NCBI RefSeq assembly: GCF_964204645.1
Contig: NC_134025.1
Location: 980,001-1,044,000, forward strand
Direction of reading: 5' to 3'
Source: Tubulanus polymorphus
Lineage: Eukaryota; Nemertea; Palaeonemertea; Tubulaniformes; Tubulanidae
Length of the DNA stretch: 64,000 nt
Shown here piece by piece: positions 13,328-52,467 of the stretch (the stretch's first letter is position 1; every line of letters starts with the position of its first letter). Below the pieces are notes generated by a model. The model did not search any database, was not told the origin of the DNA, and saw only the letters and a list, made by a program, of their open reading frames with translations. A program made the position numbers and the translations under genes.

Positions 13328-16300
13328 CTATGATAAATAATTAGCGCGCATTGGTGTCTTTTTATGCCAGTCAGAATATTGTGCATCTCCTTTTCTGCGA
13401 CGAAAAGTCCAATTTTTATAACGGCTACTTTGGCTATTACTACCCGTATTATTAGAATTATGATCAGCATCGGTCGAGTCATCATCCTCCGAATATTCCA
13501 CCGTCTTTTCGGCCGCATTGTTTTTCTGTTTCATAATCGACGTTTCCGATCTATTTCTGACGTCACGTCCGGTGCTGGTCGTTGTGCCGTTAGAATTATT
13601 GGAAGTTCGTTTTTTACGCGGGGTTAATTTCGTTTCTGGAATGTTGCCGTTGTCGTCATGATGAAACATGTAACAGTCGTCTTGTAGAAGACAGTTAGAT
13701 TTATGCGAATCGATACGATTACTTTGATCATTGGCGCATTTTCGTTTAATGTTACAATCGGTTATATTTATACGACCGTTCACTGGTGGTGAAACTGTAG
13801 ACGCTGTCTTAACATCTTTCAATCGTTCAGATCTACAGTACAAGACTCGATCTGAATTTTTCTGTAGCACTGTTTTCCCGGAAATGCTGCGGAAATGATT
13901 GAATCCGGGTTGTCGTTTTACTGACGGCACTTTCACGGGTTTCACTTTATCGCTGAAAGGTTTTTGTTGTTTTTTATTTTCGGTATTGTCGAGTGATTCA
14001 GTAGAATCAGATTTACCACGCGTTAAAGCAGACGGATGGCGTTTGAACGTTATTTCAGGATCGCTATCCAAATCTGACGAGTCGCTCGATATCGATAACT
14101 TCCGGTGCCACCGCCCAATCAGCGCGTACGATTCCGCTGACGCAGCGGATGACGTCATTAGGGGAATGTCTTCGAATTTGGGAGTTGTAGAATCGGTTGA
14201 CGTTGTGAGTCGATTATCGGCACTGGGTCTACTTCCTGTTTGAATCTTTGATAAATGCGAATGTTTATTATTGGAAGAACGCTGTTTCACGAAACGTCGT
14301 ATTTCACTCAACGGCGCTGTTTTACTATTGTTAACCGTACTTTGACGTAACTGATATTTAGGCGCTCGTTGACCTTCACAACGGCGATCCGAAGGTCGTT
14401 GATTAGACGAATCTATTGCGCTATTTTCACGGCGATTATTCGGTGTTGTCGTACTACACCCATCACGTGATGACGTATCATTCCGCGGTAATTTTCTCAT
14501 AGTCTGTCTCGAACGGGATTTAGCGGTAAGCCTCTTCAACAACCTGTCCATCCTCTGAGTCGATATCACTACCGCGTTGCTGGTTACTCCCTTTCTGAAA
14601 GTATACTTCTTCACTATACTACTAGCATTGCCGCGATATTTCCGTGATCTCCTCACGCATCGGCCAATCTGTTTCATTTCATTTCTCCGGGAACTGATGG
14701 TGGTTGATGTTGATGCGTTGTGTTTCGTATTGCGGGATTTCAGTGAGTTGCTGTTGCTGCCGCTGCTGTATCCTGTAAGCGGGCTCGTGGTCGGAGAACG
14801 ATCCCCGCACAAATACGACTTGCTACGCGGCGTTGCATTGCTAGAATTTACCGTTATACTTGCTGCGTCGCGCTCGTTGAAATCGGCTTTAGGCGAATCA
14901 GGAAGTATCATCTCATTACCAGACAGTTTATGTTCGCTAATAATAACTGTAGATTGTTGTTGATGTGGAACAGAGTTTAATGCCTCTACGCTGTTGTATT
15001 CACAATCAGTATCTGAATCTGTATACGCGATCGTTTCATGACTACTTTTAGTTTTCGATTCCGAAGTTTGTAAAATGTGTCCGTTAGAATCGTCCGCCGA
15101 TTGGTCATTCTGTTTTCTTGTTTCTGTCGGTTCACACATGGTTTGTTTTGATACGTGCTCTTTTAAAGGGTTACCACCAGTTTTAACCGTTATCCCTTCG
15201 TCATTCTTAACAGAAATTTCATTTTTTGCTTTCACGATATTTTCGAAGTTTACACCCCCTTCGCAATGCGTCAATTCTTCAGTATTCTCATTTTCGATAT
15301 CCATGTTCGCGTCCGATTTTACTTTCTTCTGTTTTTTACGAACATGTTTCTTCTTCGGTTTGATTTGCTCCTCAGAACTGTGATCGAACTCAGTCTGACG
15401 CCTTCTCTTTCTAGAAACATTTCCATCCAAACGCTTCGACCGTCTTTTATTTTTTATGACGTTCCTTTTACGAGAATTAGTCGTCTTTGCTTCATCGATA
15501 TTAAACGCGCTGTTTACCGATTGCGAAACGAAGCCGGTTTGCTTGAATAAATACATATTCGGTGCCGAATTTGATTTCATCAGATTTTTTTCATCATTTT
15601 CCGTCGATTGTTCTGCCGATAAATCGACATCGTTGCAAGCTGTATTCAGTAATAACGCTGAAACTGCGAAAGTCGCTTCGTCAGAATCGATCGTCTTCAG
15701 ATCCAATAATTCACAGGTTTCTTGTTTTGATGTCGCGATGTTTGATGAATCGGAAATTTTACAATCATCAACGTTTGGTTTATCGTCGAGACCTGAATCT
15801 GTTGTAGTGTTTACATCATCAGCCGATGAGATATCGACACTTGTCTCCTCGCTATTATCTCTAAGCGTAAGTGGCTTTTCAAACTCTACCGGAAATGTTC
15901 CAATTTTGCGTGAAGGATGAACAACAGATTCTACATTATCATCTACTGTCGCAGACATCCGGTCTAACGGAGCAGCAGTTTCATCATCGTCGATACGTAT
16001 TTCTAATATTTCATCCGGTTTTTTGTCACTGGCAATTAGCGCGTTAGTGGTATTCAGAATAGACGGGTTACCACCATCAATAGACTGGTTACGCTTCTCC
16101 GCTTCTCTACGCTTTTCCTTTTCTTCGCAGTTTGACACCTCGACAATAGAAACCTCTTCTGGTTCGATCTTAAGTTGTTCAACAACGGGACAGGCTTCAG
16201 TATCTGCGACCTCGTCATCTCCAGCAGGAATCAATCCGCTATCTTCGCATAGTATTTTCAATTCTGATTTTAAATGCGGAAAATGATCAGAATCGAAACT

Positions 16301-18442
16301 ATTTTCATCCCAGAATTGAACCGGGTCGTCGTATAAATCAGCGCTCTCAGGTTCGATACAAACGACTGGAGTTTGATGAGAATTATTGCTGATCTGTGAC
16401 GTGTTGTATCGAGCGATTCGAACCTGCAATAGTTCGCCGTGTAATAATCCATCTTCGCAAACATCTGAACCGCAACAACCTTCAGAAACAACTTTCTCAG
16501 CCGATTTCTGTTGAATCGATCCTTCACTGCTCGCAACATTGCTTCTATTTTTAGACTCGGGCGACTCCGATTTTAACGGATGTTTTCGAGGTCGACCCCT
16601 TTTCTTTTTGACTTTTTGTTTCGGCGGTAGGGGTCGTTGTTGTTGCTGTTGTTTTTGCCAACCTCCCCGACGCTTGATGATCATCTCCTGAAGAGATTTC
16701 TGATGTTGTATTTGCACGTTCAGACTTTTAGCGTCGATTGGCTTCGGTGCGAGTTTACTCGTAACAGTATTAACAACCGATCCACCGCTACCACTGCAGC
16801 AGCTGCTGCTACTGGTACTAACCACTGCCGAGGATGTAGAACTAGCTTTAGGGGTATATCGTGGAATCTTTAAAGCGACGCCTTGATCACTGCCAATTTT
16901 AGATTTTCTCGTCTGTTCAATTCGTCTCCTTTGTTCGTAATGTTGCTGTATAAGGGCGACATATGCTTCGTTTGATGTTTGCATTAGTTTAGCTGCTTGT
17001 ACCGTCAGAGCCGGTGAGGTTACTGTATTCCGACGTTCAGTCGGTTTGTGAGAATGTGCAACAGGTGGCGTTAATGGTTTACCCGCTGCCGCTTCCCGTA
17101 CGGTGTCGGAAGATTTGAGATGATTCGGTGGTAACGACGACGTTTTCGTGCTATGCGCAGGAGGTGGAGCCGGTGGTCGTTCCATCGGGACCACCGGATA
17201 ACCATAACCCTGAACGGGTACGAGCACTGATCCTTTCTGTAAGAGACCTAACGACAGCGGCATTTGTAAAACCATCGATTGAAGCAGTGATAAATTTGCC
17301 GCAACTTGAGCCGCGGTAGATGAACTGTCATGGCTGCTCGATGACGTAGATACAGTTCCGGTTGGCATCTGAGCGCGTGGTCCAGCCTGCGACGCTACCA
17401 ACGCCACCTGGGGACTGTGCAGGGAAGCACGGGTTGTTTTCGGGTCGAATTTCTGCATGTGTGTTTGTAGAGGGACGAATAGAGTTTTCGGAGCTCCGTC
17501 TACGAATGCAACAACTTTCTGGTACACGTCATCAACATTGTCAGCAGCGCCCTCTGTCGCTGCGGCTTCTGAAATTGTACAAATTGAAAGAACATTTAAA
17601 TGCACCAAGAAAAAGAGACATGTCCAGACTAGACTAGCTGATATCTCAAATTATAGACTAGACTAGCTGATATCTCAAATTATAGACTAGACTAGCTGAT
17701 ATCTCAAATTATAGACTAGACTAGCTGATATCTCAAATTATAGACTAGACGAGCTGATATCTCAAATTATAGACTAGACTAGCTGATATCTCAAATTATA
17801 GACTAGACTAGCTGATATCTCAAATTATAGACTAGACTAGCTGATATCTCAAATTATAGACTAGACTAGCTGATATTTCAAATTGTAGTAGTTTTCACCA
17901 AAAAATGAGATTAAATTTACATCATTTTTTCGAGTAGTTGACTTCATTAAACAGAATAGAAACTACTCTGAAATTGAAGTCGTATTCAGGACTACAACAC
18001 TATTGCCTGAAAGAAGACCCGCCTCTGATATACGTATTTTCTACAAGAAATCTACAATTTTCAAAGAACAATCGCCGCGTATACGAATTTAATCTGATGA
18101 GTGTAAGTAATTCAATATTGTCAGTAAATCCATTATTCATCCTTAAGCCATCGGATGTCCATAATTACTCGCGCTTCATCCAGCTTCACGGCTACAGACA
18201 GCCGCGAGTACAGTCCACACAGCACCGATACGCGAGTAAAGATGTTCAATATTTCCAGAGATGTGATTAATTCGACATCAACCGAACGATCTGCCGGTAA
18301 AAGCAGAAAACGCCTCTCGTAGTTCGGTAACAGTCAGCTGAGTATTCGTGATTATCAGTAATGATGGACAAACTGTTCATAATTCAAGTTGGTGACAAAG
18401 TATGTTTAATATGATCGCGATCAACTTACCCTTTTCCTCCAT
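13328..18442 (-). CDS. gene 1: long disordered AT-hook protein, unrecognised
   Basis: I do not recognise this gene. The coding parts are 18430-18442 (ATG plus Glu-Glu-Lys and one base, before a GTAAGT donor) and one large exon at 13328-17568 after a TTTCAG acceptor. Together they give 1417 residues. The small exon was chosen because its phase joins the large exon in frame; an ATG read 5' of the acceptor would lie in the intron. Residues 19-39 carry a motif Y-Q-x-V-x-A-x-V-x-G-x-P-x4-V-P shared with gene 2. A probable helix lies near 196-227, a single AT-hook (RGRPRKHP) at 328-335, and a very basic stretch at about 700-755 would serve as a nuclear localisation signal. Most of the remainder is Ser/Thr/Asn/Asp-rich and probably disordered. 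A nuclear, DNA-associated role is inferred from the AT-hook and basic clusters. No enzymatic domain is visible. Confidence 0.82.
17569..18429 (-). other. first coding-region intron of gene 1
   Basis: The 861-nt intron runs from GTAAGT (18429 downward) to a pyrimidine-rich ...TTTGTACAATTTCAG acceptor at 17569. Nearly a third of it is the 29 bp satellite listed separately. An acceptor-like TTTAACAG stands directly before the small coding exon, so a further untranslated exon probably lies upstream. Confidence 0.65.
17630..17888. repeat. 29 bp satellite inside gene 1 intron
   Basis: About nine tandem copies of a 29 bp unit (plus strand: CTGATATCTCAAATTATAGA then CTAGACTAG) are almost identical. 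The last copy has decayed (ATTTCAAATTGTAG). The array ends about 60 bp before the acceptor of the large exon. On the transcribed strand every unit ends GATATCAG, so each copy offers an AG dinucleotide in acceptor-like context. Confidence 0.95.
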
Positions 18443-20199
18443 CGCTGTTAAACCACGATCACCAATCGCCGAGATATTCTACGTAAAGGGCCATACATGT
18501 CTGTTAGCGATTCTACAAAAATAATGTCAAATATCGCTGAATTAGTTTATTTGTTCTGGATTGTATATTTCGAAATCTTGTCACATCATTGGTATTTCGT
18601 CGTCGAAACGTTTGAATAAACTACACAAGCTCAAGGAATGATTTTCGGTCTTTTTTTTTCATTCTTGTCTGATTTTTATATTGATATTAAACATCAATGT
18701 CAGATAAGGAATTATAATATGTAGCTAGCTTTCTGTGTGGGTTCTAACTCTGTTTCTATTTAGCCGAACAGAGCCGAACATATTCCCAAAATATCCAGTC
18801 TATGGATCAATAAATTCCCACAAAGGAAATACCGATAATCCCCGATATAGCGACGGTTTTTATGGTCCATTTTGGTTGTAAAGACCGCTCAATAAAAAAA
18901 TAATTGCCTCCTAACTCTCCCAATGACATCATCAAAAAATCCCTAGTGGTGATATTTTCAGTTAGAATACACATGATTATAGGTAATCTCATGACGTCAT
19001 AGGAGGATTAAGGAGGCAGCCATAGTCCTCTCTCGATAGGTCAGACATATATATTTGTGGACGGGTTAACTGCGACCAATTGACGTTAAACAGCGCATGT
19101 ATATTATACACAACTCATTTACCCCTCACAGGAATTGACTAATGTACCTTAAAACCCAAAGGGAATTAATATCAGTTTCTTTTCCTGCGACGTGAAGATG
19201 ACATCCACGCATATCGCATCGTTATTCCACTTGTTGCGCATATCACTGATTTTCTATACACTACTATCACCCGCGGATGATTTGTCCAGGGTCAAACTGG
19301 TCTAACTGGTCCCGAACCAGAATGTATTCAGTAACCTGTCTCTGGTTTAGTTTCACGATCAGATATTTTCACAAGCCACGTATCGGCTATGTTGGTAGTT
19401 GGTATAAGCCCATCCGATTATAGAAGATTACCGCCAACGATTATATATAACTAACTAGACCAGTCTAGAGTCAAATTTGGCCCGTGCCCATTTAGAGAGC
19501 GCGGTCACACGTAAATCACTAACTCGTTACTGAAAACGATGCCGTGGCAAATGAACTGACTCACTTCCAAAACCAGTAAACATTCACAACGAATAATCTG
19601 ACCCACGCTTAAAATTTGGTACTGTCCGACGATTTTAGTCGGGCTTTATTTTTCTCGGCTCAAAAATGCTCGTGTGATCGCGACTAAGATGCTTCGAGCC
19701 CCGAAAGGATACATGCGAGGTCTTATTTCAGTAGGAGTTGCCGTTTTGATCTGCACTTCAAATAAACTTCGGTTTGATGCTTCAAACATTATTGATATAA
19801 TATTTAGTCGCCTGGAGTTGATTTGAATGTTTGTGTTGATTTGTTTATTTTGCAGATCGAATATTCGTATTGAAATTTGTGGGTTTGATGTTCGTATAGG
19901 AGGCAATTAAACATTCGCTAATCAAAAGCAAAATATCAGAAGACGAATAACTGGCCGTAAGGCTGACTAATTTGTCAAAGATTTTTATAATGATTGTAGC
20001 AGATATTTCAAAACTCAGAAAAAAATGCTCTTGCGCACGAGTCATTGTGAAATTAAGTTTTTAATCATATCTCACCATATTGTCTGAGGTGAAAATATAT
20101 AAATCTGTTGTATTGGTGCACGGGGAAATAGAATCGTCGTAGTATAACGAACTCGGCGGCATGTCGGCATCTCCGGGGAAATTTTTCAAAAAATACTAA
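18443..20199. other. upstream region of gene 1, no further gene seen
   Basis: This stretch presumably includes gene 1's leader and perhaps its promoter, but I cannot place a transcription start. No other supported feature is seen. Confidence 0.4.
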
Positions 20200-21088
20200 G
20201 AGGTAGGTTATCTCTGGCTGGTTGGTTGGTGAGGTAGGTTATCTCTGGTTGGTTGGTGAGGTAGGTTATCTCTGGCTGGTTGGTTGGTGAGGTAGGTTAT
20301 CTCTGGCTGGTTGGTTGGTGAGGTAGGTTATCTCTGGCTGGCTGGTGAGGTAGGTTATCTCTGGCTGGTTGGTGAGGTAGGTTATCTCTGGCTGGTTGGT
20401 TGGTGAGGTAGGTTATCTCTGGTTGGTTGGTGAGGTAGGTTATCTCTGGCTGGTTGGTGAGGTAGGTTATCTCTGGCTGGTTGGTTGGTGAGGTAGGTTA
20501 TCTCTGGTTGGTTGGTGAGGTAGGTTATCTCTGGTTGGTTGGTGAGGTAGGTTATCTCTGGCTGGTTGGTGAGGTAGGTTATCTCTGGCTGGTTGGTTGG
20601 TGAGGTAGGTTATCTCTGGCTGGTTGGTGAGGTAGGTTATCTCTGGCTGGTTGGTTGGTGAGGTAGGTTATCTCTGGCTGGTTGGTTGGTGAGGTAGGTT
20701 ATCTCTGGCTGGTTGGTTGGTGAGGTAGGTTATCTCTGGCTGGTTGGTTGGTGAGGTAGGTTATCTCTGGCTAGCTGGTTGGTGAGGTAGGTTATCTCTG
20801 GCTGGTTGGTGAGGTAGGTTATCTCTGGTTGGTTGGTGAGGTAGGTTATCTCTGGCTGGTTGGTGAGGTAGGTTATCTCTGGCTGGCTGGTTGGTGAGGT
20901 AGGTTATCTCTGGTTGGTTGGTGAGGTAGGTTATCTCTGGCTAGCTGGTTGGTGAGGTAGGTTATCTCTGGTTGGTTGGTGAGGTAGGTTATCTCTGGTT
21001 GGTTGGTGAGGTAGGTTATCTCTGGCTGGTTGGTGAGGTAGGTTATCTCTGGTTGGTTGGTGAGGTAGGTTATCTCTGGTTGGTTGGT
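20200..21088. repeat. 27/31 bp minisatellite, about 30 copies
   Basis: The array repeats GAGGTAGGTTATCTCTGG followed by a variable number of CTGG/TTGG tetramers, giving mainly 27 and 31 bp units over 890 bp. The GAGGTAGGTTATCTCTGG core is nearly invariant, and the length variation is confined to the TTGG tail. There are no spacers of differing sequence, so it is not a CRISPR array. Confidence 0.97.
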
Positions 21089-21530
21089 ATATACCGACTT
21101 GTTAATCAAATTCAAATATACGTGTACAAGATTTATACATTGCGCAACTGAGGAAACTGTTTTCTTCGCACGAAAGTTTGCCGATCGTAATTATTTGTAT
21201 TCGTATTCCGTTTCCAGGATATAAAAACAAAAGTTACGTAAAAACCATTGAGGAGAATAAGTGGCTGGTTATATAATTCGTATGGAGTCGCGAACTGTTT
21301 CAATTACGGCGCGCGACATGGAACGAATTAAACTCCGTTTTATTCGTGTCGCATAAAACCGTCGAATTTATCGACAAAGTGTAATTTTACAGATTAACGT
21401 TATACTTAAAGTGTCTCTGGATCCGCACGAAACATTTTATATTTCCTGTTGTCTAATTATTCTATCGTTAAAACCAATACTTTTCCACCGCTAGAGTTAA
21501 ACAAAGAATTTATGCAAATACCTCTCAATG

Positions 21531-21531
<1 letters not shown>

Positions 21532-21577
<46 letters not shown>
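21532..21577. repeat. (TA)n microsatellite
   Basis: An uninterrupted TA dinucleotide run of about 23 units. Confidence 0.95.
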
Positions 21578-21579
<2 letters not shown>

Positions 21580-22590
21580 AAAGAAACAACAAAATCCAAT
21601 CGGGCAATTAATCTAAATATGACGGGTTATTTATTTACAGATTAAGGACCCTTTCCATGTCCGCAATTATACTGCGAACTCCTAAAAACCACAATGGTGC
21701 CTTTACGAAATTCACTGGTTGATTTTGACCTTGAAATATGATATTATCACTTTTATCAATCGTCCTCTTATCTAACCGATTTCTATAATCTGTTGCCCTT
21801 TACAAACCCATCACATCTGCCGAAAAGGCGAAGATTTTAGGAAAAGATCGCGGCTCCGCTTCTTGTTGAAAAGGGCACCATTTTTGCTATTTGCACCAAA
21901 AGGCCACTCACACGCGATATGATATTCACACAAACTTTTTACAATTTTTAGTCTTTTTCATGCCTTTTTACCTAAATGAAGACCAGCTTTAGAAAAGTCC
22001 TGACAAAAAAAGGGTTTGTTTCTTTTTGCTTTAAACGGAGTTCAATACAGTTTGAATTAAAACCCTAACGTAAACTCAACGCAACGTTATGAAAAACACC
22101 TTAAGTGCCGTAGAGCGGGAAGAGTGTTTGGAGCTAATGCGGGAAATCCCTTGCGGTCAAGGCTGTTGACATTTACGTATCAGATTGAAGGTCATTCGTT
22201 ATCTACGTGTTGCGTATGGGTGACATTTTCAAGTTTTCCGATATAGATAAAAGTAAACCCTTGTTGGACCCAGATTTCTTAAAACATATTCCAGGCAGGC
22301 CGCTGAGCTTATAATTATGGAGAAAAATATTAATCAAACGAATCAAGAAATAATGAACTTCTGTACAAAGAAAAAATACCAAATGATTTCCGAGATAATA
22401 GACCTATAAATAGGTCTTTAATCGCATATATATATATCTAACGCTTGGTTGCGAAATTCTTTCAATGAATCAAGGTTGAATATCGTTTTTGTCGCATATA
22501 TTTTTATGACTTTTTGATTGACGATCATTTCTTAAAGCCGTTTTTTTCTTTACCACACAAGGAATGAAGCTGTCACTTGATGTCCTCACA

Positions 22591-22615
22591 GATAGATAGA
22601 TAGATAGATAGATAT
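22591..22615. repeat. (GATA)n microsatellite
   Basis: Five to six GATA units run into TATATA. Confidence 0.85.
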
Positions 22616-23925
22616 ATACAAATAGCTGCGGGGGTTTTTAGTATAAAACTGTACAGTCACATCGAATTCAGTTGTGTATATATGTCGGGTGTAGGATGTT
22701 GGATTGAGAGAGATCGTTATATTTCAGAAAGAGTATCGCGGTATGTACACAGCGGTGCGTGGTGCCACAAAGAGCGCGCAGTATTTGCGCGTCTCGCGCC
22801 ATTAGACCGAACGCTGATGAAAACAGTGCGTAATATTAACGATCTTACCTGAGCCTTAAACGCAGAAATTCAACTCCTTTCAATTGACGGCTGGTAGGGC
22901 CCGGTTGTCCGGCGATGGTGGTTGGTTCAATCGAGTAGGTTATCGTTAGAACTGGTAGAATATGTCGCTGTATATAGTCAAACCACCAGGCCCGAATTGT
23001 GTACGGCGGTGCGCTTGCCTATTGATCGCTGTAAACATCGACAACAGCACTAGCCAATCAAAATTCGCCTTCCTCTGATAAACTATGCAGCTCTGGTAGC
23101 GTACGTGACTCATTATATAAGCGATATGTACTGAACAGGCGAGTTTCGGTTTGACACGACTGTACTACCGATATTCTCCGCGGCCGTCCTTTTCCCTGTG
23201 GCGGATCGGGGCGAAATGTTGCAATATCCCGAGGAAGGACGCTATTGACGGGCTGATATTATCTTTCAAAAACTCACAACCAGCGATGAAACGATTACCA
23301 TAGATTCTATTTTCCTGATATTTCCAGACGTTTTGACTTGTTCCTATTTTCCGCGTTGAAATCATTTTGAATAAACTCTGAACATGGGACGACGTGATCA
23401 TCTCTCATAAACTTCAGCTGAATATTGTGATTTGTTTATTAAACCCCATCGCAACAAACCCTTCGAAAATAATGATACATTTTTTAAGTAGAAATCAATT
23501 ATAATCGTTTCATTTACAGTAAAGTTTCGTTATCAGCAAATGGAAAAGCAATATCTTACACTTCATTTTAATTCTCTGACCACAGTTTTAATTATCTAAA
23601 GTCAATTATTGGTTCGGATTCAAACTTGTTGCGCAATTAGTAAATTGAAGTTGAATAATTCACGATGTCGTACCGTATTCATAGTTGGCACGTTTTATTT
23701 TCGATTTTTTTTTGTCAATTTTGTTATTGAAAAATATTGTTTCGCTCAACGCAAAAGGACGCAGCGCAATTAGACAAAACTATCGTGAAATAAAAGCATT
23801 GAAAAGGAAAAACAAAAACGTATGATTGAGCGAAACCGACCGAGTGGATTATTTATTGGAAATCGGAAAGTTGGTTTGAAACGTAGAATAGTCTGTAAAT
23901 TCAGACACGGAGAATATATAACAGA

Positions 23926-24398
23926 ATTAAAACCCACTTTATTCTAATTCAAAAGATTGAAAGTAAAATTTAGTTATAATTAATTACATCAGCAATTAGA
24001 ACCGCTTTGCGAAGATGTCGTGTACTGGTTTGTGTCTCCAGTGCTGATGATCTGTAGTATAGCTACAATTAGTTTATTTACTCCACAATTATACAATTGC
24101 ACAGAGAACAAAATTATTTTACAATATACATTGCAACATTGGAAATGTATTAAACATTTGCGTATATACAACGCCAGTTTTTTTAAGGGTTTGGCAATTT
24201 GAGTTGAACAAATCAAACAACTTTACGTTATTGGGGAATCTCCGGGATGAATCTAGCTCTGGATTCCTGGAAGTACGGGCAGACGAGTAAAACGTGATAT
24301 TCATATTGCTCTAGGATTTCGGAATTTAATTCGTTAAATCAAAAACTAATTCTTGATGAATGAATTTCGTTTTGAATTTTTATAAAGTGGGTTTCAAT
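23926..24398. mobile_element. non-autonomous DNA transposon with about 29 bp TIRs
   Basis: The left end ATTAAAACCCACTTTATTCT and the right end in reverse complement ATTGAAACCCACTTTATAAA are imperfect inverted repeats 473 bp apart, continuing inward through AATTCAAAA. The interior is AT-rich with no transposase-like frame. I could not define a target-site duplication, so the class is unknown. Confidence 0.5.
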
Positions 24399-25216
24399 CT
24401 TACTACTCCACATCTGAACGGGCTAGGAGATGTAATCACCATCGGTTACTGTGGTTATCCGGATAATTTAGGGCCCGGTTTTACAGACTGGTCCCAGGGG
24501 TCTAGGTTAAAGATGATACTAATCTCAGATTAATCGGGTCCTGGATGAAAGTTTGCGCGTGCAACAGTTGACCATGAAATCCAGCGAGAAATTGCGTGTT
24601 TTATTCCCTACGTAGAAACTTCAAAGTGAAACGGAATAATTTTACAATTGAAATAAAATCCAACTCTTTTTACAAATGCAATGGATATTTCTGTAAAAGA
24701 TAAATCATTTCGAACAAATACACGAGCTTTGATGAAATAAGGAAAAATCGAAATTTTCAAGTATCGTGTTCAGTCATTATCGACATTTAAAAAGACGATC
24801 AGTTCGAAATTCAGGGAATTTGCTTGCATAGAAGAAAAACGCTGGCTGGTTTAGTTCTGGTTGATACTACCAGGCGGCGATGCTTGTTCTATTAGATGTG
24901 GTTCGGCTAGCGTGTCTTGGGAGAAACAATCTCAGATATCCGCCATGATTACGCATGTAATATTGTTTTATGTGACATTATATCATGATCACAGTATTTA
25001 AGATGCGTCAAAGCTTTTTGCCGAAATATAACTTACATGTTTAGGAAAAAGGACATTGCCGCATATTTTTGTCAAATAGAAAAAGATCTAAAATCTCATT
25101 TGTTATTTGGAATGTGTTATTTTTTGCGCGCTCTATGTAATTCATAAAAGATCACTTTGATCACTTTCGTGACGATAAATACATTGAAAATTTGTCGCGT
25201 GACAAAAAAAAATATC
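24399..25216. other. intergenic, no gene seen
   Basis: The sequence near 24470-24545 (GGGCCCGGTTTTACAGACTGG) resembles the end of the GGATCC-type MITEs but is too degraded to call. Nothing else is supported. Confidence 0.4.
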
Positions 25217-25288
25217 AGGCCCGGCCGGGGGTCGAACCCGGGATCTTCGGTTTACGAGACCGACGCCTTACCACTTGGCCACCGAGCC
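25217..25288 (-). tRNA. tRNA-Thr(CGU)
   Basis: The minus strand folds as a complete 72-nt tRNA without an intron. The acceptor stem is GGCTCGG/CCGGGCC with one G-U pair, and the D-arm carries AAGTGGTAA. The anticodon arm is TCGGT-CTCGTAA-ACCGA, whose loop reads CGT at the anticodon, and the T-arm is CCGGG-TTCGACC-CCCGG. A T discriminator is followed after a few bases by a run of T, a Pol III terminator. The sequence agrees with animal tRNA-Thr(CGU). It is likely functional. Confidence 0.93.
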
Positions 25289-26487
25289 ACTCTGACAACC
25301 TGCGAATGTAATTTAGTATATAAACCAATGTACTACGCACACAACGCGCGCGGATCAATGGTTTGTACACGACTGTATGGCCGCGTATAAGATGATTTTT
25401 ACTCAAAGTTGTTGTTTTTCTGTCCATCAAGATATATGTAATTTCAGAAATTAGATTTACGAGTAACATTTCATAGGTATTATGATATTTTTGTAACACG
25501 TCCTGTAACGATGATGGCGGATACATGGCGTCGGTGTGAAAAGGTCAAATTCCCATGGCGATGTTTGTGTGTGTACGTGACGCGGTCCAGGAGCGGCTAA
25601 ACCGTATCTATCTAGCACACTACGAGTTATTGATAATTTCTCGGTAATTAGTAATGAATGGCATTGAGGAAGGGCAGTCAGTGTGCTGCGCCGTGCTCCG
25701 GGGGTACTTCACCCAATGAGTCCTGTAGCCTGAGACAGTAGTGTCGCCAAGTGATCTCCGTCGCTCTACGATCCTACTGTAACCACAAGGTTCTTGGAGA
25801 AGGTATCTCCTACACCTCTCGACCTTCACCTGGTTTCATAGAACCACGAACCTTCTAGTGCCTTTATTTCCGAGATAGAAAATTGCGGTTTTCAGGGTTT
25901 TTTAATTATTTCACGAGCAAGTGGTTCTTCATGCCGGTCCAACACAGAGGGGGGGGGGTGGCGCCGATCGAGGTTCTGAGAGTTCACCAATAACCTGTGA
26001 ATTTAGTTCACTTTTCCAATGCCTAGGGTTCATCATGATTATGTTGTTGGCATTTTTTAATTTTCTCGGATTTTACGTGACTATTTTAAGGTTTGCCTAT
26101 TTCCTGTCTCTCCGGCCTCGGCACGTTTATTATTGGATTACGGAGAATTGATAACTCAGTTATCAGAATATATGCACTCGTAACCGTTAGCGGTATTACA
26201 GTATCACTAGTGCGTATATAGTTTTTTTACGTCTGTCTCCTACTTCGTGTCACTAACCGCTGGATAACGCCATAATCATATCCATTATTGGTATGAACAA
26301 CCAGGCCACGTGTCAACATGCGAGCTGTATATACTCGGTGTACACAAACAAGTTCACTTTAATCTTTACATACTCTTTTTATTTTATGACGTTAGTTTAA
26401 AGGCTTTATGAAGAATGTATACAATATTTGGCAGACAATCCATGTTTTTTTCATAGTCATGATTGAAAATAGGTTCGAACTTTAGGA

Positions 26488-26566
26488 CCTAGGATCCGGT
26501 TTCATACAGTTCTACTGTTGTTTGACTATGGTTTGTGAACTGTGGACCCGGATCCCGGGTTTATTG
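26488..26566. repeat. MITE family A copy
   Basis: AGGATCCGGTTTCATACAGT at the left and, reverse-complemented, GGATCCGGGTCCACAGTTCA at the right face each other, as in the family A element at 12898-13017. Confidence 0.5.
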
Positions 26567-27535
26567 TTTAGAAGTCGACTCTGTATTACAATCATTTGGA
26601 AAATACTTCAATTCAGTGGGTAAATGTAACCCGGAACTCAGGGGTTCCGATTTGTCGAACTGGGTCTAGGACTGTAGAATATGGCTCTTGAATAGTATAA
26701 CTGGTTCCTAGTGTATTGTGTATCCCCGTGATATGACAATCACGTCCTCTTTATTAACATGTCTCATCATATTTCATGCTCTGAATAGATGATTTCATCG
26801 TAACAGATGTGTCGCATTGCCGAGTACACTATACATTAAAATACACTGGATCCAATGTCGGGAAAGCGACGAAACAATCTATGCAGTAAATTCCGCCTAA
26901 CTAGGTTGACACTGTCACTGTAGGGAGTTTTATATTATCTCTGACTCTACGCGAACTTGATGGCTTCGAAAAGCCCCACAAATCGTGTAGATTGCTTGCT
27001 TTACCTGAAAGTGAGCCGCTCAAAAGTCACCTGACTCAGAAACCAGCAAATTTCCACGCGTATAATATATCTTACATCGATGTATTTTTTTAGTTTTTAC
27101 AAGTATACGTGAAAATTTATCAGTTGTGATTTCGCGCACCTGCCACATACTTTCATATCGCCATCAACACGCGTTAAACTGATTCGTATTGACGATGATA
27201 ACATTGAACGAGAGGTAATTCAACCTGATTAATCTACGTATCCTGGGCATCTCATTCAGAGTCCATAATCTCAACGAGAATCTTTTTGTGTTCTAATTTT
27301 GCTATTTTAAAACTAGCCTCGAATATCGCTGGGACGACAACACCGCAAATCCGCGATTTTCTGCCGAATGGCGACCATAAACGTCGGACCAGGCCCATCC
27401 GTGGGTCAAGTTCTTCGCCTGTGAAAATGTGTAATCAACTCACCTCACATGCCGCAGCATCGTTTTGGTAACGAGTGAGACTGCACTCTCTAATTAGGCC
27501 AAATTTGAATCGGGCGCCTTATGTCGACTAGTTCT

Positions 27536-27600
27536 ACTGCGGCCTAGTGGTTGACGTACACGGCTGCCATGCTAGGGGTCCCTGTTCAGGTAGATTTTTG
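27536..27600 (+). repeat. tRNA-Gly-derived SINE fragment
   Basis: GGCCTAGTGGTTGACG is a good A-box. The following GGCTGCCATGCTA resembles a tRNA-Gly(GCC) anticodon arm, and a weak B-box GGTCCCTGTTC follows at tRNA spacing. The acceptor stem is absent, so this is a relic. Confidence 0.5.
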
Positions 27601-27983
27601 GAACAAGGGACGGTGATGTCTGGTCAAGTCCAAACCGACTGAGGGGAACTTATCGTGTAAGGTGGGACTCGACGTACATGTACTAAAAATGCAGTTACAC
27701 CTTTCCAATATGCAGTCATTCTAATAGTGTACAACTTCCCACTGGTTATTTTCCCCCACGCTTGATATTTTCAGTCATTAAACTTTTTCTTTATTAATGT
27801 TGCAAAATATGTATGTCAAACATTATTGAAAAATCATTATTATTGTTACAGCATGAATATTGGAAACGCCATTCTTGTGATTGGGTGTATTTTCAGCGGC
27901 TCGTTCCTGGTCTTGTTCCAGCGTTATAAAATACAGTATTTTGACATTCAAAATATAACATACGCACTTTTTTCGCAAACTGA

Positions 27984-27989
27984 TTTATT
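27984..27989 (-). promoter_or_regulatory. poly(A) signal AATAAA of gene 2
   Basis: AATAAA on the minus strand lies about 40 nt past the gene 2 stop codon. A second copy stands at 27790-27795. Either could direct cleavage; which is used cannot be told from sequence. Confidence 0.5.
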
Positions 27990-28027
27990 TCATGTTATCA
28001 ATCTATATATCATTATAATTATTATCA

Positions 28028-31000
28028 TTAGCGCAAACATTGGTTTAAAAGGATGGCATTTTGGCCTTTTAGGTAACAGGATATATCGTTCACTTTAACA
28101 AAACATGTCTTTAGTTGTATTCCCGACGAGCGCCTGCTATTGTTACAGTCTGTATGAAGATGATACTGTTTGTCCACATCAGAATTATCCTTGACTTCCT
28201 TCTCTTCTACTTTAGGACGTTTTACTGATTGCATAGAATCCTTATCGCTATCGGGAACACTTCCTTTCCGTTTGTTATTCAAACGATTACGCTTTTCTTG
28301 TTCGACTAAAGTTTTCAGTTTTAAAACGGACGAATTTTTTACTAAAAATGAATTTCGCTTTGAGATAGATGAGGTATGTTTGGGTTTAGTGTTTATGATG
28401 TCATCAGATCCAAGAGGTTCTGGTGATAGTTTTGGGGGTGACTTGTCAACATTGTCTCTATCACTGCTCAAACTCTTCTCAATTCGTTTCAATATGGGCA
28501 TGACGTCACTGCCCCGATAACTGCGCTGATCAGTGCTGACGCGTAAAGCACCCAATGCCGCCATTGCTTCATTCTTGGAAATCGTCGGACATTCTAAACA
28601 GGCGCCTGAATGATCGATTATTATTTGTGGCACGGCGTCTTGTTGATTATCGGAACCGTCAGTAATATCGCGTTCTTCCACGTCTTGCACATGTTTTTCT
28701 ATTTTCTCAGATTCACCACTATCCGTTCTGGTTGAAGGATATTCTTCATGTCCTACACCACTGTCCTCACTTCCATCGCGGCTTCGTCTCTTACGGGTGC
28801 CAGATGTTGAATCTAATTCTACTGGTTTTGCGATATCACCGATCAGACTTGTCATCTTTCGTTTGGTTACAGAACCAAACATACCCATTGATAAAGGTAC
28901 AGCTGGTGTTTTAGATTTTTTTGTTATCTTGGGAGGACTTTGTTTCGTAGTTTTTGTTGACGGGTTCTGACGTATTTGTTTTTTTAGTTTCGTCCACGAC
29001 ATTGCCGTCATACCTTTCCCTAGCACGTCAGACCACGTACGAACAGCCGCCACTGGTTTCGGTTTAATCGCAACAAACTTCGACGTCTTATCTTTCGTTT
29101 TTGAGATATTTGACCACATTTTCAGTTTATCGTTGATCATTTCCCGATCCGCTTTAGAGAGCGTTGATTTTGCCGGAGAAATGCTCGGATTGGACTTTGA
29201 CTGCGCGATAGGACTAGACACTTTCTGTTTAACGCTCAAGTCAACAGGAATCAGTTGTGAGGTGATTTTTCCCTCAACTTGAATCTGTTCTGCTGACACA
29301 TTTTTCTCTGCAGAAATGTCTAATGTAGGCGAACGAGAAATGTCGTTATCTGTTTGAGTTGCCGATAGGCGCTGAACGTCAGAAAAATCTGTCACAACCA
29401 CTGAAATGTTTTCACCTTTTTGCACCGCTGACGTATTTTTGTCGTCTGAGATTGTGTGAACCGTTGTATTTGCCGAAACGTTTACTACTGGGTCGGTCTT
29501 ACTGGCTTCTTTCATTTTGTCAACCGCTACTGGCTCAATGTTTACTTGTTCAGCCGGGGAATCAGTAACTGGAGCAATCGCGGTATCTGATGTTATACAC
29601 TGGCTACTTTTAACTGAATCAATAGCTGGAGCATTCGCGGTATCTGATGTTAAATACTGGCTACTTTTAACTGAATCAATAGCTGGAGCATTCGCGGTAT
29701 CTGATGTTATACACTGACTACTTTTAACTGACTCAATAGCTGGAGCAATCGCGGTATCTGATGTTATATACTGGCTACTTTTAACTGAATCAATAGCTGG
29801 AGCAATCGCGGTATCTGATGTTATACACTGGTTACTTTTAACTGACTCAATAGCTGGAGCAATCGCGGTATCTGATGTTATAAACTGGCTACTTTTAACT
29901 GAATCAATAGCTGGAGCAATCGCGGTATCTGATGTTATACACTGGTTACTTTTAACTGACTCAATAGCTGCAGCAATCGCAGTATCTGAAGTAATACGCT
30001 GACTAGTAACTGTAGGAACAGTAGTATCTGAAGTTAATGCTTCGTTACTCGGTAATTCGCCCGTCTCATCCTGTATGGTATCCTTAGCTTCTACCTTATT
30101 CCGTAGTTGGTCGATTATTGAAGAAAGTCTGCTATTTTTAGATTTAGTTTGATGAGATTTCTTGGAGTTTAATATAGTTACGGTTGTCTGATTTCGTTTG
30201 ATCTCCGATGCGGTTTTTTGGTTCGACTCGACTGTCGTTCCAGTGGAAGGTTTCCCAGGGAAGATGATTCCTGTAGATTTACTGTCCCCTGAATCATTCC
30301 ACATTGCCTCTGCATCCTTTTGGCTGAATACGCTTTGTATCTTTAAAGAATGTTGATTTTCCGCTGTAGAATCCATTTTAGTAGCCGAATCGTGTAGACT
30401 TTCCGTTTTAGAAGCCGGATCGTGTCGACTTTGCGTTTTAGGAGCCGGATCGTGTCGGCTTTCCGTTTTAGAAGCCGGACCCTGTCGACTTTCCGTTTTA
30501 GGAGCCGGACCCTGTCGACTTTGCGTTTTAGGAGCCGGATCGTGTCGACTTTGCGTTTTAGAAGCCGGATCGTGTCGGCTTTCCGTTTTAGAAGCCGGAT
30601 CGTGTCGACTTTGCGTTTTAGAAGCCGGATCGTGTCGACTTGCCGATACGGCGGTTGTCTTACGATAACCACAGTTATTCTGAACGTCAAGGACAGCCGC
30701 TTCTCTCGGTTTACTCAGGGCTGGACTATCATTAACGCCTACATTAAATTTCATTATATCATCAGATGCGCGCGCAGCGACCAAGTCAAGAAACATAGCG
30801 CCATCTATATGATCGAACTGTGAAATCCGTTCGAGCATAGCAACCAATGGTTTCCTTTGACGTAAAGTATGTTTAGCGCCCGGAGAACAAATCTCAGGGA
30901 TTAACAGTGACGATATACTACATTCAATAGGAGTTTTCGGAATTTGGTTATCGGGCTTGACGCTAGGGGGCGGTAACGGTAAACTAAGATTACTGTTACG

Positions 31001-31363
31001 TTCACTAGATTTCGACGTTGTGATGCTATTATCAGTTATTTTCCCGCGGGGTGAAGGCCATTTCTTTGGTAGTATAAGTTTCTCTTTGGTTTTAGCCACT
31101 GGGTCTGGTGGTTTAGTTGGTGGAGATGATTTTCGGGACACCTTTCTTTGATCTTGTTCAGTTGACGTCGATGATCTGGGTATCGGTAACTTGTCTCCAG
31201 TCTGATACGGCTGCGGATAGTTCCGGTTACTCGTGAGAACAGTGGCTCCGACTGGCGGTGACACATTAATCGGAACCGGAACCAAGAAGTTCCCCGGTAC
31301 CCCGTTCACAATTGCTGATACGGCTTGATACAGTTGTTGTTGCTGGTTTTTCGGGGCACTCAT
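28028..31363 (-). CDS. gene 2: repeat-rich disordered protein, paralogue of gene 1
   Basis: I do not recognise this gene. A single 3.3 kb exon encodes 1111 residues. An acceptor (TTTTGTAG) at 31367-31368 stands three bases before the ATG, so an untranslated first exon must lie upstream. Residues 11-32 carry the motif Y-Q-x-V-x-A-x-V-x-G-x-P-x4-V-P also found at the start of gene 1. Residues 164-205 look ordered (LRQRKPLVAMLERISQ, FLDLVAARASDD). Nine decapeptide repeats (SRHDPASKTQ type) occupy 242-331, and eight 19-residue repeats (CITSDTAIAPAIDSVKSSQ type) occupy about 454-598. PVDLSVK at 706-712 fits the CtBP-binding PxDLS consensus. A Lys/Trp-containing block at about 735-800 may be another folded segment. 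A nuclear corepressor-scaffold role is inferred only. Confidence 0.82.
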   Translation of the reverse strand: MSAPKNQQQQLYQAVSAIVNGVPGNFLVPVPINVSPPVGATVLTSNRNYPQPYQTGDKLPIPRSSTSTEQDQRKVSRKSSPPTKPPDPVAKTKEKLILPKKWPSPRGKITDNSITTSKSSERNSNLSLPLPPPSVKPDNQIPKTPIECSISSLLIPEICSPGAKHTLRQRKPLVAMLERISQFDHIDGAMFLDLVAARASDDIMKFNVGVNDSPALSKPREAAVLDVQNNCGYRKTTAVSASRHDPASKTQSRHDPASKTESRHDPASKTQSRHDPAPKTQSRQGPAPKTESRQGPASKTESRHDPAPKTQSRHDPASKTESLHDSATKMDSTAENQHSLKIQSVFSQKDAEAMWNDSGDSKSTGIIFPGKPSTGTTVESNQKTASEIKRNQTTVTILNSKKSHQTKSKNSRLSSIIDQLRNKVEAKDTIQDETGELPSNEALTSDTTVPTVTSQRITSDTAIAAAIESVKSNQCITSDTAIAPAIDSVKSSQFITSDTAIAPAIESVKSNQCITSDTAIAPAIDSVKSSQYITSDTAIAPAIESVKSSQCITSDTANAPAIDSVKSSQYLTSDTANAPAIDSVKSSQCITSDTAIAPVTDSPAEQVNIEPVAVDKMKEASKTDPVVNVSANTTVHTISDDKNTSAVQKGENISVVVTDFSDVQRLSATQTDNDISRSPTLDISAEKNVSAEQIQVEGKITSQLIPVDLSVKQKVSSPIAQSKSNPSISPAKSTLSKADREMINDKLKMWSNISKTKDKTSKFVAIKPKPVAAVRTWSDVLGKGMTAMSWTKLKKQIRQNPSTKTTKQSPPKITKKSKTPAVPLSMGMFGSVTKRKMTSLIGDIAKPVELDSTSGTRKRRSRDGSEDSGVGHEEYPSTRTDSGESEKIEKHVQDVEERDITDGSDNQQDAVPQIIIDHSGACLECPTISKNEAMAALGALRVSTDQRSYRGSDVMPILKRIEKSLSSDRDNVDKSPPKLSPEPLGSDDIINTKPKHTSSISKRNSFLVKNSSVLKLKTLVEQEKRNRLNNKRKGSVPDSDKDSMQSVKRPKVEEKEVKDNSDVDKQYHLHTDCNNSRRSSGIQLKTCFVKVNDISCYLKGQNAILLNQCLR
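29570..30004 (-). repeat. 57 bp coding tandem repeat in gene 2
   Basis: Eight in-frame copies of a 57 bp unit encode CITSDTAIAPAIDSVKSSQ with few changes. Units alternate Asn-Gln-Cys/Ser-Gln-Phe-or-Tyr and Ile-Asp/Ile-Glu, showing that a 114 bp dimer was duplicated. Frame is kept throughout. Confidence 0.95.
30371..30640 (-). repeat. 30 bp coding tandem repeat in gene 2
   Basis: Nine in-frame 30 bp copies encode SRHDPASKTQ and variants (Gln/Glu at the last position, His-Asp/Gln-Gly at 3-4, Ser/Pro at 7). The last copy is decayed (SLHDSATKMD). Confidence 0.95.
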
Positions 31364-34300
31364 GATCTACAAAATACCACAGAAAAAAATGAAAGCATTG
31401 TATAAAATGAAATCCTACATGAACTGAAGTGCAAACAAGCTTTGCACGTAAATTGATATATTTAGATAATAGGACATGTGCGCAGTGGATTAACCGCGTA
31501 TGTAGATTCAAATCGACAGCTACATCTATTGCAAATTGATTAGCTATCAGACTCTAACCTTTACAGCGTGCAACATGTGCCACGAAGGGGACAATATCGG
31601 TGGACAAACACCGTAAGCCAATGGACGACCTTTTGTAGTCTTCTATCAAACGTCAACGGTAAGACCTGCTGGTCAATGGGAACGACGTCACGAGCAAGGC
31701 CTGATCGAGTCATAAATAACAGTTTGGATAAATGCTTAATTCGTACACGTCATTTTAAATAGTTCGGTGCCATTGATTTGGAAAGGTGCCAAGATTCATG
31801 ATTAGCCAATCAACAAAGAATCAGTGTACAGAATGTTGAACCCGATTATAAAATAACGTGAACTACAATAAAACGTGACTGTGAATTATGAAATAGTTTC
31901 TAACCTCATATACGCATTATTGAAGTATTCTATTTCCAAAAATATGAATAATTGTCCTTAAACTAGGACTTAAATATTGATTAGAAAAAATCATGGACCC
32001 TAAAAGTGAGTTCGAAGTTTTAATCATTAAACTAGTTTACATAATGCTTGGAGGATTACTCCAAGCATAATGCCAGTCAACTTCACAAAGGTCCTCTTCT
32101 TCTCTCCTTTTCTCTGTATAGAGTTATGAACCACCCTTTTCTCAGAGATCCCTCGCCTTTATACCCTATAACAACATGTTTATTAACGTGTAGCCTTAAC
32201 ATATATGAAATAAATATAGTGATTTGATTTTACCTCTGTCCGTCGTGCGGTGTTGGTTGTATATAAGTGTTTTCTGCTAAGTGAAATCCTTGAATGATAA
32301 AATGCTTTTAGAGCTGACGTACGTTCTATTCTAGAGTTTAGCGTCGCCCAAACATCTGTCTAGGTCGATATACACGTGACTGTTGCTACTAACGTGTCGA
32401 CGTAAACGCGCTATACGATTGGCTAAATTGTGAACCAATCGCGTACGGGCGATGAGTCGTATTGTTTTTGATCGTGTTAGTATTTGCCGGATCCTGAGGC
32501 TCAAACACTTCCGGAAAATTACACCGTCGAATTCAAATAGTCAAAAATCAGGAGACTTAAAAGAAATAGATGAGCGCGACACTTTTGCTAGAATACCACA
32601 CCCATCTCTATATCCCGATGACAGCCGATGACCCCAGGCTGTAAATCTCTTTATGAACTCTTAACCTGAGTATATTTAGTTATAGTCATATATATATATA
32701 TATCTGTAGTGTATATCTACGGTTATAATATCGAATCAGTACTGTACCAGTCAATGTCAGGTGATCAGTCGTTTTATTGATTCATATATACACACGCGTA
32801 TTATAATATGCATGGATTTGTTGAGAGGATTTTTCAACTGATTCATTAATTCCAAGTACTGCATTTAAACGAGCTGAATAGGAATCAATGCTTGGAATCT
32901 ACCGCTTTCGGTTTTACCGTCAAAAATCACCAAATCACCTGAAAGCTTTCTACTTTGCACATATCTATTCAACCTTCAAAGTACTATTTGTCTTTAAGCT
33001 TATCCATACCAAATGTTGTATACATCTTTTGGATGAAATATGAGGAATACTTCGCGATATGACTAAGGGTGATATGCCCTGGGGTATCGGCGGAGTATGT
33101 CAAATACTAGACCCGCTAGTCAATCTCGAGGGCGGCCATTTTAGATTTATTTGATCAATGGTGGATTACGTGGCGTTATATTGACATTCTCGGCTGTGTA
33201 CGTAGTTATGTACCGGTTATACGAATCAGTTTAGAACGAATCGACATGATTTCCGCTATAGTCTGCCTGACGGTATTCCAGATATTTGCAGAGGTCTACT
33301 GGCATGCACGCAATAGAGCGCCTACACACACTACCCATATTACGGTGCGGTTTTATAAACGCAACAGGATTGCACACCTAGTTACCATGGTTACAATGGT
33401 TGACGTCATAATGTACATACGGGTAACTCGGATGACGGCACCACGGGCGGTTAAAAAAAATCGGCGACGATTTATTCAACCGACTGCGCCGGAAATTCAA
33501 TCACCTACTTTCAGGTTTATTCTGCTGAAACGAGCTAGAGTGGAGAAAAAAGACGAATTGCTTGGGCGTGTGTCTAGGAGTTTAAAAGGGGATGAGAAGA
33601 AGGTAGCTAAGCGACCAACGGCGTTCGTGGACAGCGAAAACAAGAATGGGAAAAACTCATTTCTATCAACTTGTTTGTTTTTCAGGGAACGGCGATTTCC
33701 CGGAAGGGTAGTCCACTAAAAAGGTCGAACCTCACAAACATTCCTGGCTGAGACGTCCCCCGATAGGACACCAGCTGGCACCGAAAAAAACTGTTTGAAG
33801 CAGGAAGAAACGAAGATACTTATTGAACGTGAGATAATTACCCTGTATGACTTCACCAAAAAAACCTGTGTCTGGATGTTTGGGTTGGTTACACTAGAGG
33901 CAGGAGGACATCAGTTTGGATAAAACCACTTCCAGGTTGAAGTAGACCTGAGTGAACCAGGCGGATAGGAGACAGGATCAATGATCCATGACCCAAATCC
34001 CAACAGCTGTTCGATCGAGGCTCAAGAGTTACGGGATATCTTTAATAGAGAAAATAGGCTAACTAACAATTACATCCAACAAGCGATCAATAGAATAAAC
34101 CGCCAGTAAAAAGCATGAATAACAAAATACTCTCGTGTCAGAAAACGTGGCTGATACCATTCACCTTGACCTTTATGCAGATCTAATCATAATGCAAATC
34201 CATTAATCTATATACATGTACAAACAATACATACCATTTGAAAACCTGTTTCAGCTAGTGGACATCGACCACAGCACGCGGTCCTCTCCAATCAACAACT

Positions 34301-36483
34301 AGCATCGAGTGATACTGGACGTGACCGGCACGTACTGAAACGCACCAATCCGCGCCTACCTGCGTGTCACGTGACGTGTATTGTTTTGCGCTCGGGCCGC
34401 CGACTAGCACACGTGACGGGCCCTTATCGTCCACAGTTGCCATGGGAATACGTGTCGATTTGAAACAGGTGTTCCAGCGGCTGTTCATATACGACATCGC
34501 TCTTCAGATGATAATGTTGAAAAGTATGAAAATAGATCGTGGATGATGTATGATGTATGAACTAGAGTCATCGGCGAATAGATAACTATCATTGATGAAA
34601 CATTCTGTTCATGGCGGTCATTAAAAACGAGTCCGACGTGGTGGTCTCGAAAATTCATGGTGAAATTTATTTCACCTCCACTTCCAAGTTCCAAATCTAA
34701 AATATAAATCGTTTTAGTGTTCATCTTCCAACCAAGCACGTATATATAAACTATAGTTTATATACGTCCATGTTCCAACCGAAGCATGTCGGAATACTAT
34801 GATGAGATTGTCAATCTCTGAATCGTGAGATTCATGAGCTACAGAATATCATTCTCAAGCCTCAATTCGTTCCCTAGAGTTCTGTAGTGCGCTTGTGTGA
34901 GCCTCGATGGCTAACATCAAACGTTTATCCCTACAACGTTCCCCGAGTGTCCCAAAGTTCTTCATTGAAATAGAATAGTTGAAAAGCTCGTTCTTTCCCG
35001 ATTAAACGAATTATATATCTTTATATGCTACTATTGCGCGCATTGATTTGAATAATTCTAAAATAAAAACTATTATCTTAGGTTTCCTGACATCCGATTA
35101 GTCTGCCTTAATCAATAACTTCGTTTTCTAATTCATGCGTCAACGGTAACTAATTATTTCTCTGCACCCCATAGCATTTAATATACGATGTGTTTTTCGC
35201 TAAACCAATTGTTAATGGTATAAAAGTGTTATCCTAACAGTTACGAGGTTTCTCCCACGACAAACTTTTATATAATTAACTGTAGGCTTATCAATTTATA
35301 CGGTCGTTGAATTCTGTTGTTTTTTGTCTTTCTGATTGAATCGAAGGCACATCTAAAATGCGTTTTCATTGGAATCAAATCTGTACCTGATGCTCAGATA
35401 CCAGGTAACATTATTCGTCTGTCATTCAGAGCCTGAAGGCTATGGAATCTACCGTAAAACATGTTCTTAAATATCCTTTGGAACTGAGAACAACGCATTG
35501 AGTGGCAACCGCCAGCTTTTGAAATCTGAAATTCAATTCTATCAATTTCTAACTCGGTTTCATCTCTAGCGATGGAACCCTAGCGCGATGCCTCAGGCGC
35601 GCTTACCATCGTAAACCTGATATAAATATATATGCTGAATTCATCAGAAAAACATCTGGAACCCGATTCAGGATAACATCCGGGAATTATCACTCTCATC
35701 TGCTTGTGAATATCGATCCGAATTTAAATATTGTTCACGACAAAAAACGATTGTAAGACACAAAACTTAGATGTAAATCAAAATCGGAACAAAATCTGAA
35801 AACCATGACACGCATCGTGGTAGGTTAGAGAAGGGCTTTGTAATGTTTAAAATATGAGGATATGAAAATATAGGCTAATAATGTTATGACTAATAAACAT
35901 GAAAAAAAGCCACCGAAAAATGAACAATGACAACAAAGTGACGTTCAAATTATCTGTACTTCAAAGGAAAAAAGACTTGGATTATCAAAACAGAATAAGG
36001 CTAGATATATATCCTATTCGGTGCTCTGGTGGCTCAGCCCTTTTGTTTTTATCTTTTCTCAGCTCGCTTCCAAATAAGGGCTTTGTTTATATACTAATAT
36101 ATATGAGTCACAAAGCGATTTAGAGTCAGTGAACAAAGTTAGGGGTTCTGTGTACTAGAGGACAATGGGAGGGCACGTGTCAGGCGTCACATGCCTACAC
36201 ACGTCTCTCAATCGGGGTTCCGTCTACTTTCATCATCTCCCGGCTCCCCACCACCCAACTTCGCCAACCAGTTTGTCACAAACAAATACCTAGCGACTAA
36301 AGCTAATCTCGGTAATTTACGTTTCCATACAATCACCGGAATCGCTGTTACTGCGGGCCGTGAAAATAAGAATAGTTACTGTAACTGCCATGAAAAAATT
36401 GCGGCGGTCTTCAAATCTAAAAAAATGAAATCTTCACAAACATACATGGCAAAGAGGCAACTGGAAGCCGCAACAAAATATGC
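31364..36483. other. upstream region of gene 2 and intergenic space
   Basis: This stretch should include the gene 2 leader and promoter. A donor-like CAGAG|GTAAAA on the minus strand near 32233 is a candidate end of its untranslated first exon. A 10 bp hairpin (ATGCTTGGAG/CTCCAAGCAT) lies near 32044-32068. One 157-codon plus-strand frame is listed separately. I see no other gene. Confidence 0.4.
33246..33719 (+). CDS. uncertain 157-codon open frame
   Basis: The frame starts with a hydrophobic stretch (ISAIVCLTVFQIFA) that could act as a signal peptide or membrane segment. A strongly basic Arg/Lys-rich remainder follows. It has no recognisable domain, no clear splice sites and no poly(A) signal immediately downstream. 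Its length is above what chance gives most of the time in this AT-rich sequence, but not decisively so. It may be spurious. Confidence 0.18.
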   Translation: MISAIVCLTVFQIFAEVYWHARNRAPTHTTHITVRFYKRNRIAHLVTMVTMVDVIMYIRVTRMTAPRAVKKNRRRFIQPTAPEIQSPTFRFILLKRARVEKKDELLGRVSRSLKGDEKKVAKRPTAFVDSENKNGKNSFLSTCLFFRERRFPGRVVH

Positions 36484-52402: not shown

Positions 52403-52467
52403 CTTCCGGGGTCCAAAAGAACTGAAATTATACGTAAAATGTGAATAGGTAAATCTGATATATGCCT

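Follow-up and report, generated by a model that had tools for sequence, protein, structure and literature searches.

A short N-terminal segment shared by two adjacent giant-exon genes of the nemertean Tubulanus polymorphus

Introduction

Tandem paralogues that diverge fast while retaining one short N-terminal interaction motif are a known kind of gene pair. Here we describe two neighbouring genes, g1 and g2, in a 64,000-nucleotide stretch of the 268-Mb genome of Tubulanus polymorphus (the window, G000:C1:980,001-1,044,000; positions are those of the window unless prefixed C1). Each gene is predicted to encode a long protein chiefly in one giant exon, and both proteins carry the same motif near their N-termini, a match that is not due to chance. 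The pair resembles fast-diverging tandem paralogues in its adjacency on one strand, in its short conserved segment and in the disordered remainder of both proteins, which bears repeats in g2; it differs in that the homology rests on about 20 residues. From the start codon of g1 to the stop codon of g2 the distance is 9.6 kb, with both genes on the minus strand, in agreement with a preliminary description of this DNA that had placed the giant exons about 10 kb apart on one strand.

Results

The pattern Y-Q-x-V-x-A-x-V-x-G-x-P-x4-V-P fits g1 and g2 exactly, a few codons past the acceptor of the giant exon in each case (residues 20-37 of g1 and 12-29 of g2), as had been claimed in the preliminary description. 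Across the motif region, 9 of 20 residues are identical in an ungapped alignment with a BLOSUM62 score of 46. A comparison of this alignment with shuffled sequences had been set in advance: none of 3000 shuffles scored at least 46 when the N-terminal 40, 50 or 60 residues were used, whereas 2 of 3000 did so with 80 residues and 5 of 3000 with 100 residues. Block shuffles that keep local composition likewise never reached the motif score (0/3000).

The motif is rare in the surrounding DNA and in the genome. In a six-frame scan of 264 kb (167,384 positions, frames containing masked letters excluded), the top foreign match of each motif was the other motif, at 46 against 34 and 29 for the next. 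When the first 50 residues of long open reading frames (ORFs) were compared pairwise, g1 and g2 again ranked first at 46, with the next pair at 33; this comparison drew on 23 composition-filtered ORFs taken from the first Met, of which one has no Met, leaving 22. Across the whole genome, a DNA pattern for YQxVxAxVxG gave nine exact matches and its reversed control one. Only two of the nine, those in g1 and g2, continue with xPx4VP; they lie 13.8 kb apart on the same strand, and nine random places would be expected to yield about 0.002 pairs at most this far apart on one strand. Six of the remaining seven matches fall in ORFs of 23-54 residues; the last one falls in a 511-residue ORF (within a 3-kb locus) that lacks the rest of the motif. 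Protein queries of the genome with the N-termini of g1 and g2 returned self-matches only and missed even each other, and the exact pattern misses variants, so that a divergent third copy elsewhere may have escaped both. A relaxed pattern was applied to the 264 kb, of which about 5 kb is masked, and returned 10 overlapping rows that fall at five places: g1, g2, one antisense to g2, one repeat tract and one frame of 73 residues.

The two motifs are alike as peptides rather than as DNA. Identity over their 20 codons amounts to 12 first, 15 second and only 4 third positions, and seven of the nine identical residues are encoded by different codons. The divergence at third positions and the differing codons indicate that the protein, not the DNA, has been conserved, which speaks for an ancient divergence in which the peptide was under selection, and not for recent copying or gene conversion. 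Comparison of the 8-kb gene regions by blastn gave a best E of 0.054 and nothing at the motif.

Both predicted proteins are basic, with net charges of +30 (g1) and +27 (g2); Ser, Thr, Asn, Gln, Pro and Gly make up 41-43% of their residues, and the charge-hydropathy index is below 0. The products of two further giant ORFs in the window, g3 and g4, have 36-39% of these residues and also an index below 0, but are acidic (net charges -156 and -29). Like the AT-hook chromatin proteins (PF02178), g1 carries an AT-hook-like KKKRGRPRK (residues 325-333, core KRGRP) within a basic disordered protein; it also has four K/R clusters. It differs from AT-hook proteins in remaining below the Pfam cut-off (11.1 bits against 17.4, E 0.4), and g2, which has one K/R cluster, contains no AT-hook core by regular expression. 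In Pfam and NCBIfam no match reached the cut-off for either protein; among PDB sequences none matched whole g1 or g2 at E 1, and none matched the N-termini below 0.2. Searched whole against the genome, g2 found only itself (41 scored of 73 candidates), and the 14 other g2 rows, at E 0.004 to 1, all lie inside residues 235-359, the region of its 10-residue repeat. In viral contigs, 162 stretches fit the peptide patterns and none encodes a relative. Those parts of the literature on giant exons, MyoD tandems and conserved N-terminal motifs that were accessible held nothing useful. Residues 706-710 of g2 read PVDLS, which we take to be the PxDLS form of CtBP-binding motifs; g1 has VDLSAEQ (residues 652-658) and g2 has VDLSVKQ, a match too short to serve as evidence.

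Structure prediction of the motif, which the preliminary description had proposed, was run and gave contradictory answers. From a two-sequence alignment headed by g2, AlphaFold2 predicted a short N-terminal helix and a beta-hairpin that coincides with the motif (strands 12-19 and 22-29, N-G at the turn). This 57-residue model is of low confidence: the predicted local distance difference test (pLDDT) score was 83 and 84 in two blocks, about 50 in the remainder and 62.5 on average, and the five models ranged over 42-62. Folded alone, g1 instead gave helices at 10-24 and 27-38 over the motif (residues 15-32 in that model), at much the same confidence, with pLDDT blocks of 86 and 70, a mean of 63.0 and five models closer to one another (57-63). 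Neither input had a real alignment, and because strand and helix contradict each other we claim no fold. The alternating V-x-A-x-V-x-G-x-P, together with the N-G/D-G pair, would favour the strand reading; if the strands pair across the turn, the outermost pairs by hand assignment, Y12-P29 and Q13-V28, are identical in both proteins. A Foldseek search with the g2-headed model yielded no match at E <= 0.001 among 112 matches up to E 10. The model resembles a ubiquitin-type first beta-hairpin, with which it shares the succession of strand, N-G turn and strand. It differs from the ubiquitin beta-grasp in that no helix or later strands follow the hairpin; moreover, no ubiquitin occurs in the PDB sequence matches of the N-termini, and g1 alone models as helices.

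The gene models of g1 and g2 are predictions (Table 1). The g1 protein would comprise 1417 residues including MEEKE and would begin MEEKE-AAATEGAADNVDDVYQKVVAFVDGAPKTLFVPLQ, with a phase-1 junction between exon 1 and the giant exon. The exon 1 donor is the sole match to a consensus donor regular expression within 17,569-20,200, and the first AATAAA past the stop codon is about 716 nt away. In g2, the acceptor TTTTGTAG precedes 31,366, and the ATG at 31,363 lies three bases into the exon, so that the splice junction falls in the 5' untranslated region (UTR); the protein begins MSAPKNQQQQLYQAVSAIVNGVPGNFLVPVPI. No donor was found by consensus regular expression in 31,367-36,500, and the upstream exon of g2 was not located. 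The stop codon of g2 and an AATAAA are 41 nt apart. Its two repeats have periods of 57 and 30 bp, both multiples of three, and are read through in frame, as expected for coding sequence. Within the window, minisatellites occur in non-coding as well as coding DNA.

Table 1 Coordinates of g1-g4 and of features predicted within them
Feature	Positions	Strand	Remarks
g1 giant ORF	13,328-17,650	-	stop-to-stop; open part 13,331-17,650, 1440 codons
g1 predicted coding exon 1	18,430-18,442	-	ATGGAGGAAAAGG (MEEK + 1 nt); donor GT at 18,429
g1 predicted intron 1	17,569-18,429	-	contains 29-bp minisatellite, 17,626-17,888
g1 predicted giant terminal exon, including stop codon	13,328-17,568	-	acceptor TTTCAG before 17,568
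g1 shared motif	17,471-17,524	-	YQKVVAFVDGAPKTLFVP; core Y20-P37
g2 giant ORF	28,028-31,366	-	stop-to-stop; open part 28,031-31,366, 1112 codons
g2 predicted coding part of giant exon, ATG to stop	28,028-31,363	-	1111 residues; acceptor at 31,367/31,366
g2 shared motif	31,277-31,330	-	YQAVSAIVNGVPGNFLVP; core Y12-P29
g2 in-frame 57-bp tandem repeats	29,559-30,005	-	19 residues, ITSDTAIAPAIDSVKSSQ
g2 in-frame 30-bp tandem repeats	30,372-30,645	-	10 residues, RHDPASKTQS
g3 giant ORF	41,122-46,722	+	stop-to-stop
g3 giant terminal exon	41,185-46,722	+	1845 residues from MLPSYS; acceptor TTTTTCAG
g4 giant ORF	49,829-52,477	-	stop-to-stop
g4 giant exon	49,829-52,402	-	857 residues from MSPVKEQ

Discussion

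The sequence comparisons give good support to an N-terminal segment that the two tandem genes share and that has been under selection. Tandem duplication, which we infer from about 20 residues and from position, is the most economical reading of this segment and a likely one. On balance we lean towards regarding g1 and g2 as an old tandem pair that encodes long, basic, mostly disordered and probably nuclear proteins with one N-terminal docking segment kept. The like positive net charge of the two proteins, in contrast to the acidic g3 and g4, also speaks for the pair. An ancestral gene would have duplicated in tandem to give g1 and g2; selection would then have preserved only about 20 residues near the N-terminus, whereas the remainder diverged and, in g2, gave way in part to in-frame repeats. 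The role of the segment may be that of a docking peptide by which g1 and g2 attach to one common partner, probably in the nucleus, with the disordered body of each protein performing the rest. A more far-reaching proposal, which we regard as doubtful, is that the segment is an undescribed docking module of a giant-exon, chromatin-associated family, maintained by selection throughout a tandem duplication as about 98% of each protein became unalignable, so that the module alone would carry the shared function. If a role in conserved docking is borne out, the segment would offer a handle on the partner and on the true orthologues of two unalignable orphan proteins, and the pair would be a clear case of paralogue homology surviving in only about 20 residues.

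Several results weigh against an old tandem pair. Whole-protein blastp of g1 against g2 gives the motif match an E of about 0.05; the highest ungapped score over the whole length, 51, falls outside the motif and is reached by 40 of 100 shuffles; with the whole-protein match so weak, the case rests on the matched N-terminal place and on genome-wide rarity. In 2365 tile comparisons of g1 with g2 the N-terminal tile ranked first only narrowly, at 46 against 42. The bodies of the proteins do not add to the match. With the motif removed, 89 of 300 block shuffles reach the g1-g2 score; 485 of 1000 shuffles do so for residues 41-250 of g1 against 33-250 of g2, and 815 of 1000 for the C-terminal 250 residues. 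The preliminary description had likewise seen nothing similar beyond the motif, and the blastn comparison is in line with it. Since similarity across most of the protein is lacking, g1 and g2 are a pair by motif and position only. Whole-length g1 against g3 is exceeded by just 2 of 200 shuffles and so stands out more than the bodies of g1 and g2 do (other pairs: g1-g4 23/200, g2-g3 40/200, g2-g4 82/200); bulk resemblance therefore fails to single out g1 and g2, and that of g1 to g3 is possibly a matter of composition. Regarding the identity of the introns, the distance from acceptor to Tyr codon is 44 nt in g1 and 36 nt in g2, a difference of 8. The conflicting structure models belong on the same side. 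Of the tandem duplication with one conserved module put forward in the preliminary description, the shared, selected segment and the adjacency have stood, while whole-gene similarity is absent.

The strongest rival on origin is a partial duplication, in which copying was limited to the 5' end (promoter, first exon and beginning of the giant exon), which then became joined to an unrelated open frame; the bodies would never have been homologous. It would account for the sharp end of the similarity past the motif and for the position of both motifs within 36-44 nt of the acceptor. The flanks and first introns show no DNA similarity, though age would erase such a trace, and the like net charge of the two bodies speaks mildly against a fusion; we consider this origin rather doubtful. 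Convergence, by which unrelated disordered proteins would each have gained the same short linear motif for a common partner, fits conservation at the protein level alone with different codons, and fits remainders that are unrelated by sequence. It has to contend with nine identical residues that keep one 18-residue register at corresponding N-terminal places of neighbouring same-strand genes, and with the lack of a third copy by exact pattern in the genome. Given the adjacency, convergence is less likely than partial duplication, and quite improbable overall.

It is also unlikely, if a little less so than convergence, that the segment opens a metazoan domain that already has a name, or that the genes have known orthologues outside the libraries searched. 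Disordered N-termini are in general poorly covered in Pfam, NCBIfam and PDB; set against this, the searches gave no Pfam or NCBIfam match at cut-off, no PDB sequence match within the E values given above and no significant fold match, a result that excludes only the content of those libraries. The giant exons might instead be two isoforms of a single transcription unit, as alternative 3' terminal exons behind a common 5' UTR. They share a strand, and the upstream exon of g2, besides not having been located, would be non-coding because translation begins inside the giant exon right past the acceptor. However, g1 requires a separate MEEK coding exon at 18,442, joined in phase 1, and g2 is followed by an AATAAA of its own, which makes isoforms very improbable. 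As for chance similarity, the blastp value and the chance-level top ungapped score elsewhere in the proteins are what it would predict, but the N-terminal shuffles, the reciprocal best matches in 264 kb, the genome-wide pattern and the codon pattern leave it next to no credence.

Other genes in and around the window

Stop-to-stop ORFs of at least 250 codons number eight in the window: the four giant ORFs of Table 1 and four others that overlap within a simple repeat near 8 kb. The N-terminal motif is absent from g3 and from g4, and g4 has no Pfam family above cut-off. A possible third family member was considered in g3 and rejected, as its IVINNVYIPI precedes the acceptor and is hence intronic. 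Neither g3 nor g4 was retained on the first 50 residues, where shuffles reached the observed scores in 359 of 1000 cases for g1-g3, 157 for g2-g3, 59 for g1-g4 and 215 for g2-g4. The g3 protein contains VLDLSVR, which resembles a CtBP-type PxDLS motif.

Further long frames with disordered-looking proteins occur within the 264 kb, for example at C1:880,001-883,336, 900,946-904,260 and 970,431-974,036, and two of these further frames are, by eye, packed with in-frame protein repeats. A stretch of about 5 kb immediately left of the window, at about C1:975,000-980,000, is N in the genome copy. On the plus strand at 58,957-63,036 lies a probable multi-exon gene for a Ras-like small GTPase; its exon at 62,124-62,531 matches Pfam Ras (E 4e-11), and the two frames flanking that exon, without a match at E 0.01, were assigned by eye. 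To the right of the window stand two adjacent genes of the MyoD-type basic helix-loop-helix class, both on the minus strand, at C1:1,052,470-1,053,348 and C1:1,059,872-1,060,837. The first of these has matches to the Pfam HLH and myogenic Basic domains; the second was assigned by eye.

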